Source of the DNA: Armatimonadota bacterium
GTDB taxonomy: Bacteria; Armatimonadota; Fimbriimonadia; Fimbriimonadales; Fimbriimonadaceae
Reading direction: 5' to 3'
DNA length: 64,000 nt
NCBI GenBank assembly: GCA_016223145.1
Contig: JACRPN010000012.1
Coordinates: 62,001 to 126,000, forward strand
The notes under the pieces: model-generated
The model's input: the letters and a program-made list of their open reading frames with translations, nothing else
The model's database searches: none
What the model was told of the DNA's origin: nothing
Position numbers and translations under genes: made by a program
Shown: piece after piece, positions 1-53,493 of the stretch
How positions within the stretch are numbered: the first letter of the stretch is position 1
Layout of the letters: each line of letters starts with the position of its first letter

Positions 1-1207
1 TCTCGCCAAAGGCGGCGAAATAGTTGTCGGTGAACATGTCGGCGATGGTCCTGCGGAAATCCCACAAGAAGCGCTCGGTGACCTCCTTGCTTTCGACGCC
101 GACGCCTGCGACCGTTGGCAGATACGCCATCAGATCATAGCCCCGCCGTTTCTGGAACTCCTCGCGCATCCTCGGGGTCCAGTTCTGGCTGCCCACTTCA
201 TAGCTATCGATGAGGGCGTTGTTGAGCGACTTGCCCGCCAGGGGCCCTGCGTCGGCGAGCACCTTGGCCATGATCCCGTCCCAGTGCGTCTGCAGCGCCT
301 CGCGGCTCAGCTTGTCCACTTCGAGGCCATCGCCTTCAGGCGGTGAAGGGTGGTTGTCCTTGCCTGTGGGCACGTGGCCCATCCTTAGAATCGTCCAGTT
401 GCCTTCCGGGACGTTCCAGGTCAGCTTGCCGCTGGCGTCCATCTTGCCGGTGAGAAGGAAGAAACCCTCCTTAGGGACATGGAGGCCGGCGGCTCCGGGC
501 GTGAGGTCTGGGTCGAGCCCGTCTTGGCGGTGGACGCCGGTTTTGCCGAGATGGACGGACTGAAAGAGGTTTTCAGGTGTTAGGGTGTTCAGGTTTTCAG
601 GCCATGCCGTGCTTGGCTCCACAACTCCGGTTGCCTGACTACCTGAAAACCTGACAACCTGAGAACCGATGTCCTCTCCCTCCGTCGGCGTCCGGAACGC
701 AAAAGCCGCGATGTCCTTGTAATAGTCCACTTTGGCGTACACATGCGGCGCTTTTGGCATCGGCAGCACTTCCTCGAAGTGCTTCGGCCCTTCCACCTGC
801 ACGCTCGACCACGCGATCACCTGCATGGCGTTCTCGGGGGTGATCCAGGGACCGCCGCTGCTCGACCAGCCCGCGCAGTTGTGGATGCAAAGCTCGATGC
901 CAAGCCGCGCGGCCTCTTGGACGGCCCACTTGGTCATCTCGCGCCACTGGGGGCTCATGTAGCCCACGGGGCCCTTGGGGATGCTCTCGGGGACGGTGAA
1001 CATCTGGGCGCCGCCGATGCCAGCGCGCTTCATCGCCTCAAGGTCGGCCGTGATGCCCTCCTTGGTCACGTTGCCGTTCATCCAGTGCCACCAGGTGTGG
1101 GGCTTGGCGCTTGCAGGTGGATGGCGGAATGAATCTACCAGGGGATCTTGGACTGGAAAGGCTCTGGGCGCGAGGGTGAAGGCGAGGCAGAGAGTGACGG
1201 CAAGCAT
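1..1207 (-). CDS. GH106-like glycoside hydrolase (alpha-L-rhamnosidase type), 3' end outside window
   Basis: The visible 402 N-terminal residues begin with a signal peptide (MLAVTLCLAFTLAPRAFP). The segment PHTWWHWMNGNVTKEGI followed by ADLEAMKRAGIGGAQMF (about residues 34-68) is characteristic of large secreted GH106-related proteins that act on rhamnose-containing glycans. The reading frame was translated by hand because it runs off the left edge. An AAGGA ribosome site lies just before the ATG. Oddity: residues about 178-214 are encoded by an octamer repeat element (567-667) that does not resemble the family sequence, so this is an in-frame insertion. Family assignment is from motif memory; substrate is not determined. 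Confidence 0.7.
   Translation of the reverse strand, partial: MLAVTLCLAFTLAPRAFPVQDPLVDSFRHPPASAKPHTWWHWMNGNVTKEGITADLEAMKRAGIGGAQMFTVPESIPKGPVGYMSPQWREMTKWAVQEAARLGIELCIHNCAGWSSSGGPWITPENAMQVIAWSSVQVEGPKHFEEVLPMPKAPHVYAKVDYYKDIAAFAFRTPTEGEDIGSQVVRFSGSQATGVVEPSTAWPENLNTLTPENLFQSVHLGKTGVHRQDGLDPDLTPGAAGLHVPKEGFFLLTGKMDASGKLTWNVPEGNWTILRMGHVPTGKDNHPSPPEGDGLEVDKLSREALQTHWDGIMAKVLADAGPLAGKSLNNALIDSYEVGSQNWTPRMREEFQKRRGYDLMAYLPTVAGVGVESKEVTERFLWDFRRTIADMFTDNYFAAFGE
567..667. repeat. Octamer repeat hairpin inside the GH106-like gene (family A)
   Basis: Four degenerate octamers of the TTTTCAGG / TGTTCAGG type (567-600) are followed by a short loop and about four octamers of the complementary ACCTGANA type (633-667). 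The two arms are inverted relative to each other, so the transcript can fold back. The same octamer family recurs at 35672-35727, 51171-51273 and 52784-52815. It is translated in frame without a stop. Confidence 0.8.
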
Positions 1208-44136: not shown

Positions 44137-44180
44137 GTTAGCCAGTTCTTGCCTTGGGGACATGCTATGAATCCTTCTGC

Positions 44181-44213
44181 GAAGGGCGAAGGGCGAAGGG
44201 CGAAGGGCGAAGC
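44181..44213. repeat. Heptamer array GAAGGGC (family E)
   Basis: Four exact GAAGGGC units plus a partial fifth, 45 bases past the permease stop. The same heptamer with C/T variation occurs in inverted orientation inside argS at 51711-51738. The rest of the gap up to 44346 holds a GC-rich stretch (CTCGCCCCTTGGGGAGAG) of the kind often dispersed in genomes. Confidence 0.85.
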
Positions 44214-45925: not shown

Positions 45926-46017
45926 GATTTGGGATTTGAGATTTCGGATTTCGGATTGGGGACGGCCCGCCGGCACGGCCCAGGCTTGACAATCCGCAAG
46001 CCGCAATCTACAATCCC
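45926..46017. repeat. Heptamer hairpin between the two tRNA-Gly genes (family D)
   Basis: Five in-phase GATTTNG-type heptamers (45926-45960) face four in-phase inverted CAATCCG-type heptamers (45990-46017). The arms match over roughly 27 of 33 bases. The element begins 4 bases after the first tRNA, so it may lie within a joint tRNA precursor. Confidence 0.85.
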
Positions 46018-46027
46018 AAATGGAGAT

Positions 46028-46102
46028 GCGGGCGTAACTCAGTGGTAGAGTGGCTGCTTCCCAAGCAGCAAGTCGCGAGTTCGAGTCTCGTCGCCCGCTC
46101 CA
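46028..46102 (+). tRNA. tRNA-Gly (anticodon CCC)
   Basis: Complete cloverleaf: acceptor GCGGGCG / CGCCCGC, D stem ACTC / GAGT, anticodon stem GCTGC / GCAGC with loop TTCCCAA, T stem GCGAG / CTCGT with TTCGAGT loop, encoded CCA. Specific for GGG codons. The acceptor stem is identical to the upstream tRNA-Gly, suggesting tandem duplication and divergence. Confidence 0.96.
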
Positions 46103-50871: not shown

Positions 50872-53247
50872 TCATGCCGCGGGCTCGGCCCTCTCCATCC
50901 TCTCCGGCGCGGAGATGCCGAGAAGCTCAAAAACCGCCCGCAGCCCCGTCCGCGCGGCCTCACAGAGCGCCAGCCGTGCCTGTGAAAGCTCCGGCTCCTC
51001 GGGCTGGATCACCCGGCAAGCGTCATAAAACCCGTGGTACGCCCGCGCGAGGTCCATCGCGTAGGTCGTCAGCCGGTGCACGCCGTAATCTTCGGCGCAT
51101 CTCCGCACCTCGAACGGCAGATCGAGGATCTTCTTGATCAGGGCCAGTTCTTTGGGGTGGGTGAGGAGGGAGGTGTTCGGGTTCTCAGGTGTTCGGTTTT
51201 CAGGTGCTCGGTGTTCAGATCCCGGATTTGAGGGCTCGCCCGCCTGAACACCTGACAACCCGACAACCCGAAGACCACTCTCTGCCGCCTTGGCGATCAC
51301 CGAGCAGATCCGCGCGTGAGCGTACTGGACGTAATAAACGGGGTTCTCGTCGGACTGCTTCTCGGCCAGATCCAGGTCGAAATCCATGTGGGTGTCGTGC
51401 GAGCGCATCAGGTAGAAGAACCGCGCGACATCGCAGCCGATCCGCATCTGCTCGGCCTCGGGCGCGTTCGGCGCGGCGTTCTTTCCGATTTCGGCCATCA
51501 GGTCGCGAAGGGAGTAGATGTTCCCGTCGCGCTTGCGCATCGGCGCGGGTTTGCCGTCCTTGACGAACCGCACGATCTGGAAGATGACCACTTCGAGCCG
51601 CTTCTTGGCTTCCTCCAGCGCGGCCTGGCACGCATCGCGCTCAGCGGGGCTCTTGTAGAGTTCGCGCTCAAAGTCGGACAGGTCAGCCGAGTCGGACATG
51701 TTCGACTCCACCTCGCCCTTCGCCCCTCGCCCTTCGCCACTTCCCTCTGACTCTTCGCTTCTCGCCTCTCGCCTCTCGCCTTCCCCCTCCTCCAGCAAGG
51801 CCCCCACCACCGCCTGGAGCCGCCCGATGTAGCCGTGGTGGTCCGGGCCGAGGATGGTCAGCAGCTTGTCGGCGGGCTGAACGTGGCCCTCGGCGTCGGG
51901 CTTGGACCCCCTTCTGAACTTGTCCTTGTGATAGGCGACGTCGCTGGCGATGTAGGTCAGTCGTCCGTCTTTGCGACGCAGCACGCGGTCCTTCTGATCG
52001 CCGAACTTGGTCGAGCGCAGCCAAAGAGTGGCTCCCCCTCCTTGACTGGGCGCCACTCTGGCAGTGAGCTCCGACTCGTTCGACTTGTCAGACAGGTCGG
52101 ACAGATCATCATCGGTGGTCCCTTCATCCCCTTGTCCCTCGGTCCCGGGTTCCTCTTCTTCCTCGACCGGCTGGTCGTGCCGGACGATCTGGTCCGGCTC
52201 GCCCTTCTTCTTCAGGATTTCGAGCTGGTAGGGCTCCACATCCGCCGCGCCCTTGGCGTCCAGCTCCTCCAGACATCCCGCCACGGTGCCGCTGTCATGC
52301 AACGACTGCTCCGAGAACCACGTGTCGAAAGTGGTGGAGAAGCTGGAGAGGTCTTGGCGCTGCCTGGAAAGCATGATCGCCTGAACCCGGGATTGCCAGA
52401 CAGATAGCGGCTGTTCATTGAAGTCGTCGAAGCAATCTACTCCGTCCCACGCGTCATGCAGGTCCCTTGCGGCATCTAGAACATGTTCACCAAGATATCC
52501 GTTCTCTGGAAATGAGAAGTACTGGTCCGGCTTTTGTGGATGGGTCCACCCCTTCGGGTTCCGCTCCTTGTCGACAACTTCGTAGTAGTGCTGGACGCTC
52601 TTGGTAAACAACCGCATCTGCTCGCTGTTCACTCCGTCGTTGATGTAGTACTCCCGGTGGACCGGGTGCCCGGCGGCTTCCAGCACGTTGCACAGCGTGC
52701 TGCCGAACGCCGCGCCGCGCCCCGAGCCCACCGTGATGGGGCCGTTCGGGTTCACCGAGACGAATTCGACGTTCAATCGGAGAGGTGCTGGGTGTTGGGT
52801 GTTCAGGTTTTCAGGTGAAGAAGCGATGCGCGATGCGCGATGCGCGATGGGGGAGGCGGAGTTCTTGAAGCCCTCGACTCCGAGCTCCAAGACCCTCGGC
52901 ACGTGGGCCGCGACGGCCGACGGGTTCAGGCGGAGGTTGATGAAGCCGGGGCCTGCGATTTCGGCGGAGGAAATCAGGGGTGCGCTGCTATGCCCGTCCG
53001 ACTGGTCTGACTTGTCAGACAAGTCCGACGGGGCCAAGCAAGCCACCAACCTCTCCGCGATCTCGCGCGGGGGCTTGCCGGCGACCTTGGAGGCTGCCAG
53101 CGCGAAGTTGCACGCGAAGTCGCCGTGGCTGGGGTCCTTCGGGTCGGCGACCTCGATCGCGGGCAGCCCTTCCGGCGGCAAACAGCCCTCGCGGACCAGA
53201 TTCTGGACCGCGTTCTCAAGCAAGGACTGAAGGGCGCCGCGCAACAA
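50872..53247 (-). CDS. argS: Arginyl-tRNA synthetase with several low-complexity insertions
   Basis: The catalytic core is clear: NPNGPITVGSGRGAAFGSTL at the HIGH position, LWLRSTKFGDQKDRVL, LTYIASDVAYHKDKF, ILGPDHHGYIGRLQAVVGAL, PMRKRDGN in place of KMSKR, FDLDLAEKQSDENPVYYVQY and YAMDLARAYHGFYDACRV. TTG 53247 is the best start (LRGALQSLLENAVQNLV); the frame upstream reads through octamer arrays. The 791 residues exceed the usual 550-600 because at least five repeat-encoded inserts (about residues 71-86, 130-150, 380-392, 500-526, 658-693) separate conserved blocks. HIGH is TVGS here, lacking both histidines. Essential gene, presumed functional. Confidence 0.88.
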   Translation of the reverse strand: MLRGALQSLLENAVQNLVREGCLPPEGLPAIEVADPKDPSHGDFACNFALAASKVAGKPPREIAERLVACLAPSDLSDKSDQSDGHSSAPLISSAEIAGPGFINLRLNPSAVAAHVPRVLELGVEGFKNSASPIAHRASRIASSPENLNTQHPAPLRLNVEFVSVNPNGPITVGSGRGAAFGSTLCNVLEAAGHPVHREYYINDGVNSEQMRLFTKSVQHYYEVVDKERNPKGWTHPQKPDQYFSFPENGYLGEHVLDAARDLHDAWDGVDCFDDFNEQPLSVWQSRVQAIMLSRQRQDLSSFSTTFDTWFSEQSLHDSGTVAGCLEELDAKGAADVEPYQLEILKKKGEPDQIVRHDQPVEEEEEPGTEGQGDEGTTDDDLSDLSDKSNESELTARVAPSQGGGATLWLRSTKFGDQKDRVLRRKDGRLTYIASDVAYHKDKFRRGSKPDAEGHVQPADKLLTILGPDHHGYIGRLQAVVGALLEEGEGERREARSEESEGSGEGRGAKGEVESNMSDSADLSDFERELYKSPAERDACQAALEEAKKRLEVVIFQIVRFVKDGKPAPMRKRDGNIYSLRDLMAEIGKNAAPNAPEAEQMRIGCDVARFFYLMRSHDTHMDFDLDLAEKQSDENPVYYVQYAHARICSVIAKAAESGLRVVGLSGVQAGEPSNPGSEHRAPENRTPENPNTSLLTHPKELALIKKILDLPFEVRRCAEDYGVHRLTTYAMDLARAYHGFYDACRVIQPEEPELSQARLALCEAARTGLRAVFELLGISAPERMERAEPAA
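51171..51273. repeat. Octamer hairpin inside argS, C-terminal region (family A)
   Basis: GTGTTCGG and TTTTCAGG-type units (51171-51218) face inverted ACCTGACA / ACCCGACA octamers (51242-51273). The loop starts with GATCCCGGATTTGAG, a 15-base motif matching the loop of the 53323-53489 element with one change. Translated in frame as a Pro/Asn/Glu-rich linker. Confidence 0.8.
51671..51781. repeat. Nonamer and heptamer arrays inside argS (families F and E)
   Basis: Four nonamers of the AAGTCGGAC type (51671-51706) are followed by four heptamers CCTCGCC / CTTCGCC (51711-51738) and three exact CTCGCCT units (51761-51781). On the coding strand they give Ser-Asp-rich and Glu-Gly-Arg-rich stretches placed between ILGPDHHGY and the IFQIVRF block. 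Confidence 0.85.
52073..52108. repeat. Nonamer array inside argS (family F)
   Basis: Four in-phase nonamers of the GACnnGTCn type. Coding strand gives DLSDLSDKSNES. It interrupts the enzyme just before the LWLRSTKFGD block. Confidence 0.85.
52784..52850. repeat. Octamer and heptamer arrays inside argS (families A and G)
   Basis: Four octamers ending in TTTTCAGG (52784-52815) are followed by four heptamers GCGATGC (52823-52850, last one GCGATGG). On the coding strand they give SPIAHRASRIASSPENLNT, directly before the conserved LNVEFVSVNPNGP block. Confidence 0.85.
52996..53031. repeat. Nonamer array inside argS, N-terminal domain (family F)
   Basis: Four in-phase GTCNGACNN nonamers. Coding strand gives an SDLSDKSDQSD string. 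Third copy of this family within the gene. Confidence 0.85.
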
Positions 53248-53322
53248 GGTCCACCCTAGGTACCCGAAGCGGCGTCTCCGTTGCCGGAGTTTGGCATATG
53301 CGGGAGAGACGCCAGGGGGATG

Positions 53323-53489
53323 ACGAGTGAAGGGATGAAGAGATGAAGGGATGAGGAGAAGTGGCAATGATGGGGTGAAGCGATGAGGAGATGAGGGGAT
53401 CCCGGACTTGAGCCAGGGCACTCTGTTCCCCGGCCCTCAGACCTCAGACCTTGCCCCTCATCGCTTCACCCCTTCATCCTTTCACTGGT
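53323..53489. repeat. Octamer hairpin upstream of argS (family B)
   Basis: Ten in-phase octamers of the AGGGATGA / GGAGATGA type (53323-53402) face four inverted octamers (53458-53489). A 17-base stretch GGGGTGAAGCGATGAGG (53372-53388) has an exact reverse complement at 53456-53472. The loop begins GATCCCGGACTTGAG. It fills most of the 246-base gap between argS and the ABC-2 permease gene. Confidence 0.85.
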
Positions 53490-53493
53490 CCCC

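Follow-up and report, generated by a model that had tools for sequence, protein, structure and literature searches.

How does an essential enzyme come to carry several families of short tandem repeats inside its reading frame? We addressed this question for argS, the gene for arginyl-tRNA synthetase (ArgRS), which occupies 50872..53247 on the minus strand of a 64,000-nucleotide stretch (the window) of contig C12 in a 3.87-Mb, 97%-complete Armatimonadota genome of the family Fimbriimonadaceae. Named relatives support this family placement, and CP054189 is one of the two genomes that share its genus. The product, of about 791 residues, contains five repeat inserts that are probably gene-less (non-autonomous) derivatives of S23p-type elements, lodged in tolerant surface loops. 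In a profile search the protein matched TIGR00456 with 298 bits, split over five stretches, and the catalytic, N-terminal and DALR domains lie in a single open frame (PF03485, PF00750, PF05746, TIGR00456). The TTG start at 53247 fits the family N-terminus on alignment with other members; a longer GTG open reading frame, reaching 53421, extends into intergenic repeats and translates them. An AlphaFold2 model of the protein gave a predicted TM-score (pTM) of 0.84, and its top matches in the PDB were ArgRS structures without exception. The HIGH signature was not matched; T[IV]GS stands there throughout the Fimbriimonadaceae enzymes (approximately 50 sequences), and other Armatimonadota families retain the second histidine (GH). 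Since the whole family has T[IV]GS, we regard it as a lineage trait and not as decay of this copy. A search of the 97%-complete genome found no second argS, and the idea that a standard copy elsewhere leaves this one a pseudogene was rejected. Judged by its domains and predicted fold, the argS product is a complete, single-copy and, in all likelihood, working ArgRS; an initial annotation of this DNA had already noted that all conserved ArgRS blocks are present.

That annotation had also counted at least five in-frame repeat insertions, and alignment with 31 family members upheld the count: five inserts, I1 to I5, are confined to the study protein, are absent from all 31 orthologues and leave the reading frame open. 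I1 (residues 73-86, SDLSDKSDQSDGHS; 52987..53028, minus strand, as are the others) shows the repeat pattern and holds a complete four-unit GTCnGACnn element of 34 bp at 52996-53029. I2 (residues 125-151, GFKNSASPIAHRASRIASSPENLNTQH; 52792..52872) contains a TCAGGTnn 8-mer array (52784-52818) and a GCGATGC 7-mer array (52823-52849). The acidic loop I3 (residues 361-405, DLSDLSDKSNESE; 52030..52164) contains a decayed nonamer array, and I4 (residues 485-524, EEGEGERREARSEESEGSGEGRGAKGEVE-SNMSDSADLSD; 51673..51792) joins a GGCGAGA/GGCGAAG 7-mer array at 51712-51789 to a decayed nonamer (SDSADLSD). I5 (residues 660-692, VVGLSGVQAGEPSNPGSEHRAPENRTPENPNTS; 51169..51267) is an inverted pair of TCAGGTnn arrays whose arms, at 51172-51194 and 51246-51268, are 87% complementary across a 51-nt spacer and give an RNA fold z of -4.0. 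Three of the inserts had been taken for copies of one nonamer family; the family assignment stands, but only I1 has the complete 34 bp, I3 and I4 being decayed. The structure prediction placed its lowest-confidence parts in sequence specific to this protein. Five of the six segments with a predicted local distance difference test (pLDDT) score below 50 coincide with the inserts (residues 81-85 in I1, 129-146 in I2, 361-401 in I3, 504-517 in I4 and 664-674 in I5), and the sixth is an own-specific loop without repeats (residues 228-242). An essential single-copy enzyme has thus taken up mobile-like sequence of several families between its folded blocks, as had been claimed.

The same loops are occupied in other genomes. 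In the ArgRS of a different genus (genome G019), loops I2, I4 and I5 house arrays of AAAATCC, ATCAGCG and CAATCGT. Tandem arrays of AAAATCC and CAATCGT were present in a 200-kb sample of that genome, hits inside argS counted, and absent from a 200-kb sample of genome G001. The two genera have filled these ArgRS loops independently, with different repeat families. Other occupants were also seen: argS of UBA2785 (L039/L105) carries at loop I4 a 126-residue domain that by eye is possibly MshEN/GspE-N-like, and the loop near study residue 280 holds unrelated segments of 40-213 residues in many relatives. In Uphvl-Ar1 (L104) the ArgRS match spans about 2.5 kb with a longest open frame of 400 residues, possibly owing to a frameshift.

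Array statistics were collected from a 347-kb sample of the study genome, and exact patterns were counted over the whole genome on both strands, overlapping matches included, and compared with 20 relatives. Tandem Repeats Finder reported 33 arrays with a score of at least 50 in the sample, compared with 0.2 in order-3 Markov shuffles, with prominent periods of 7, 8, 9 and 16. The nonamer GTCnGACnn gave 112 matches, three consecutive CAGGTnnTC units 48, three consecutive GGCGAGA units 24 and the GCGATGC array 3; each of these patterns had none in the 20 relatives. The arrays are therefore neither chance nor inherited, and form dispersed, lineage-specific families. The earlier claim that the inserts share their arrays with intergenic DNA likewise holds within the window, where an inverted pair of TCAGGTnn arrays, the family of I2 and I5, lies at 567..667 and a GCGAAGG array of the I4 family at 44179..44212. 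The intergenic DNA just upstream of argS carries, at 53317..53490, arrays of the GATGAAGG type arranged as an inverted pair (arms 53322-53356 and 53456-53490, 86%). Also in the window, a GATTTGG array at 45926-45962, with an inverted partner close by, begins 4 bp past a tRNA-Gly gene and is followed by a second tRNA-Gly gene at 46028. The 7- and 8-bp arrays of this genome are chiefly intergenic, as is to be expected of repeats that shift the reading frame at most lengths, and ArgRS is unusual in housing several of them. A dGTP triphosphohydrolase (L157 1312-2439) has an 8-mer-derived insert, TPSLRPSVPSSLSPTVPSSFR, in a conserved region.

The nonamer is found far more widely in genes. Among 26 further nonamer arrays, 21 lie within genes, every one in the SD-x frame; with ArgRS I1 and GcvPB added, the count is 23/23 genic arrays, and a second reading frame of the arrays would be open too. 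The hosts include the synthetases AlaRS, LysRS, LeuRS (twice) and PheS, as well as UvrC (twice), Mfd, ClpB, NuoL, GcvPA, GcvPB and the ribosomal proteins L10 and L30, in which (L208, L197) the nonamer encodes SD-x tails. The corresponding loops of LysRS and GcvPB are empty in relatives, and comparison of LysRS, PheS, GcvPB and ClpB with solved structures leaves clean gaps at the inserts; one UvrC array may replace native sequence and not add to it. In-frame repeat insertion is genome-wide and not peculiar to ArgRS. Exactly four GTCnGAC units (34 bp) make up 19/33 arrays. The GTC.GAC framework is strict with nearly random free positions, its conservation in part reflecting hit selection, since the searches required that framework; a reversed-pattern control had zero matches everywhere. 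The variable positions showed no excess of hairpin symmetry over expectation. Across the phylum the 34-bp pattern had a patchy distribution, with 13/291 genomes positive; the other Fimbriimonadaceae sampled all lacked it.

These data bear on the strongest of the competing explanations, namely that the arrays grew in place by replication slippage in fast-evolving loops, ArgRS tolerating a genome-wide tendency of 7-9-bp units to expand. Some 8-mer arrays do alternate their units (period 16), as slippage yields, ArgRS loop lengths vary in all relatives, and the tandem repeats of Borgs have been described as independent in origin (PMC9879509). Nevertheless, dozens of unrelated loci share one degenerate unit that relatives lack, the four-unit length is preferred, and the inverted pair in I5 is not a slippage product. 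Adjacent nonamer units, moreover, are no more alike than chance (P 0.55 and 0.38), and on this absence of neighbour similarity we rejected slippage as the sole origin of the nonamer arrays. We consider in-place growth unlikely as the general explanation.

A candidate source for the arrays is provided by the 13 four-helix-bundle genes of the study genome (S23p, the 23S rRNA intervening-sequence protein). Inverted arrays stand on both sides of 11/13 of them, with scores of 28-57, compared with a maximum flanking-array score of 27 among 268 control genes. The bracketing families include GGCGAGA, GGCGAAG, GTGGAGGn, GATGAAGG, GGGACnnA, AGGTCCG and GTCnGACnn; the GATGAAGG-type family found upstream of argS brackets the gene at G000:C4:24395, and the 7-mer array of I4 matches those around one four-helix gene. 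In the 347-kb sample 36/75 arrays match a bracketing family, two of them being the gene flanks themselves. Of the four ArgRS families two, GTCnGACnn and GGCGAnR, have a cognate four-helix gene, which covers I1, I3 and I4. In two distant genomes a nonamer array lies inside the linker of a four-helix "suffix" protein, and at L204 (2998-3694) a nonamer cluster sits between uvrB and a suffix gene. The four-helix protein matches S23p (2gsc) in sequence (E 3e-20) and likewise in fold. The next fold match is Avd, the partner of the reverse transcriptase of diversity-generating retroelements (4dwl, 8ub7; TM score approximately 0.7), a likeness that lies in the four-helix fold alone.

The arrangement extends to plasmids of Cyanobacteriota, Gemmatimonadota, Pseudomonadota and Bacteroidota, where inverted short tandem arrays bracket 18/18 four-helix genes, 17/18 scoring above all 200 dinucleotide shuffles. 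Two Nostoc plasmids (L335/L344) provide reciprocal empty sites: each carries a different array-gene-array unit, of approximately 413 and 503 bp, that is missing from the other, with flanks 92-99% identical. The arrays and the gene therefore insert as one unit. This comparison of filled and empty sites is in near-identical DNA, whereas the ArgRS inserts were compared with relatives of which even the nearest are only 65% identical in protein. Overlaps of 3-5 bp at the Nostoc sites are ambiguous with the repeat sequence. The four-helix copies examined sit between or in protein genes, not in rRNA genes, and several lie within operons (L337, L341, L351 and L349: cas6-cas4, cas10-cmr3 and beside sufB). 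No four-helix relative was found in a search of viral contigs.

The Nostoc sites also bear on whether the repeats might be selected protein-binding or nucleoid DNA sites, the four-helix genes being regulators that bind their own family and do not move it, with genic presence incidental. Such sites would be consistent with a GTC.GAC framework that is strict while the positions in between are free, and with the existence of cognate four-helix genes for repeat families. We find this improbable, rather more so than slippage, since the reciprocal empty sites show whole-unit insertion and regulation leaves in-frame insertion into many housekeeping enzymes unexplained. It is very improbable that ArgRS gained the inserts as adaptive diversification (linkers or docking sites) and that they are not tolerated parasitic DNA: two genera did fill identical loops independently and the SD-x linkers are acidic and constant in frame, but a given loop holds different sequences and families, arrays decay (I3, I4), and the identical peptide occurs in many unrelated enzymes.

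We therefore return to the derivation of the ArgRS inserts from S23p-type elements. Under this proposal, small repeat-array elements would have inserted, with the frame preserved, into surface loops where the enzyme tolerates them; solo arrays, whether in ArgRS or in further genes, would derive from array-gene-array elements by lack of the gene, and the four-helix protein may help such gene-less arrays to spread. Arrays would persist where the frame was kept and a disordered, hydrophilic linker was added. As to the route, our best guess is movement via an RNA or reverse-transcribed intermediate; we think this the most likely route because the four-helix protein has the fold of Avd, a reverse transcriptase partner. 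Several observations weigh against the proposal. For TCAGGTnn and GCGATGC, the families of I2 and I5, we found no four-helix gene that would be their cognate. The nonamer arrays share no 24-mers and give no sign of recent copying, and the empty sites in Nostoc show no long duplication of the target. An inverted partner lies near only 6/44 intergenic solo arrays, and we rejected such partners as a rule for solo arrays. Clear arrays were seen at only 7/30 suffix genes of other Armatimonadota. The distribution over the phylum favours the proposal, the suffix gene being present in 11/13 nonamer-bearing genomes compared with 37/278 others (Fisher P 5e-8), but this association ignores shared ancestry, and for two of the 13 the array sits within the suffix gene itself.

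Comparison with known systems places these elements closest to the intervening sequences (IVSs) of 23S rRNA genes. The IVS of Coxiella, described as selfish, has an S23p open reading frame between terminal inverted repeats; IVS distribution is sporadic and the function of S23p unknown (PMC4990558). The likeness is a four-helix reading frame between terminal inverted repeats, as at the study and plasmid genes. The known IVSs, however, interrupt rRNA genes and are excised by RNase III, whereas the elements here end in arrays of 7-10-bp units and are located within protein genes or in the DNA between them. Arrays without a gene are scattered through the study genome, and the ArgRS inserts themselves have no reading frame of this kind. 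The initial annotation had drawn its precedent from the Rickettsia palindromic elements, palindromes of approximately 105-150 bp for which the papers cited here describe no associated gene (PMC10969869, PMC2229807). They too are small, dispersed and translated in frame within conserved genes, yet the analogy proved distant: the nonamer element here has 34 bp and the arrays measure 27-105 bp, with units of 7-9 bp and many families per genome, and several of these families make up the inverted ends of S23p-gene elements. The tandem heptamers known from Nostoc and Xanthomonas (PMC4692102), along with the cyanobacterial short tandemly repeated repetitive sequences, are dispersed, partly degenerate 7-bp arrays that prefer four units. 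These features recur here, and on Nostocales plasmids arrays of this kind bracket four-helix genes. PARCELs, with units of 25 residues, often in membrane-targeted proteins (PMC2996958), and the amino-acid tandem repeats of Borgs, with units divisible by three and nearly all unique to their locus (PMC9879509), share with our arrays a patchy distribution and palindromic or tandem repeat DNA within reading frames. They differ in the 25-residue unit and in being locus-unique and not dispersed families, respectively. A cognate gene flanked by the same short palindromic DNA that is dispersed over the genome is known from the REPIN/RAYT system; the flanked gene here encodes a four-helix S23p-like protein and not a Y1 transposase. 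In a literature search that was short on subscription journals, we found no paper linking four-helix or S23p genes to dispersed tandem repeats.

The findings connect three matters kept apart in the literature cited here: the intervening sequences of rRNA and the S23p protein they encode, the short tandem repeats scattered in cyanobacterial and other genomes, and in-frame repeat insertion into essential genes. They offer a concrete candidate for the origin and spread of 7-9-bp repeat families, and lend themselves naturally to experiments on the amount of foreign sequence that an essential enzyme can bear. A broader proposition, to which we give somewhat less than even chances, is that S23p genes are the cores of a widespread and largely unrecognised class of mobile elements, ending in inverted arrays of 7-10-bp tandem repeats and propagating their own families via an RNA or reverse-transcribed intermediate, a step aided by the Avd-like protein, with gene-less ends that remodel essential enzymes. 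If this is true, those ends would be where the short tandem repeats of cyanobacteria and further phyla, which have long lacked an explanation, come from.
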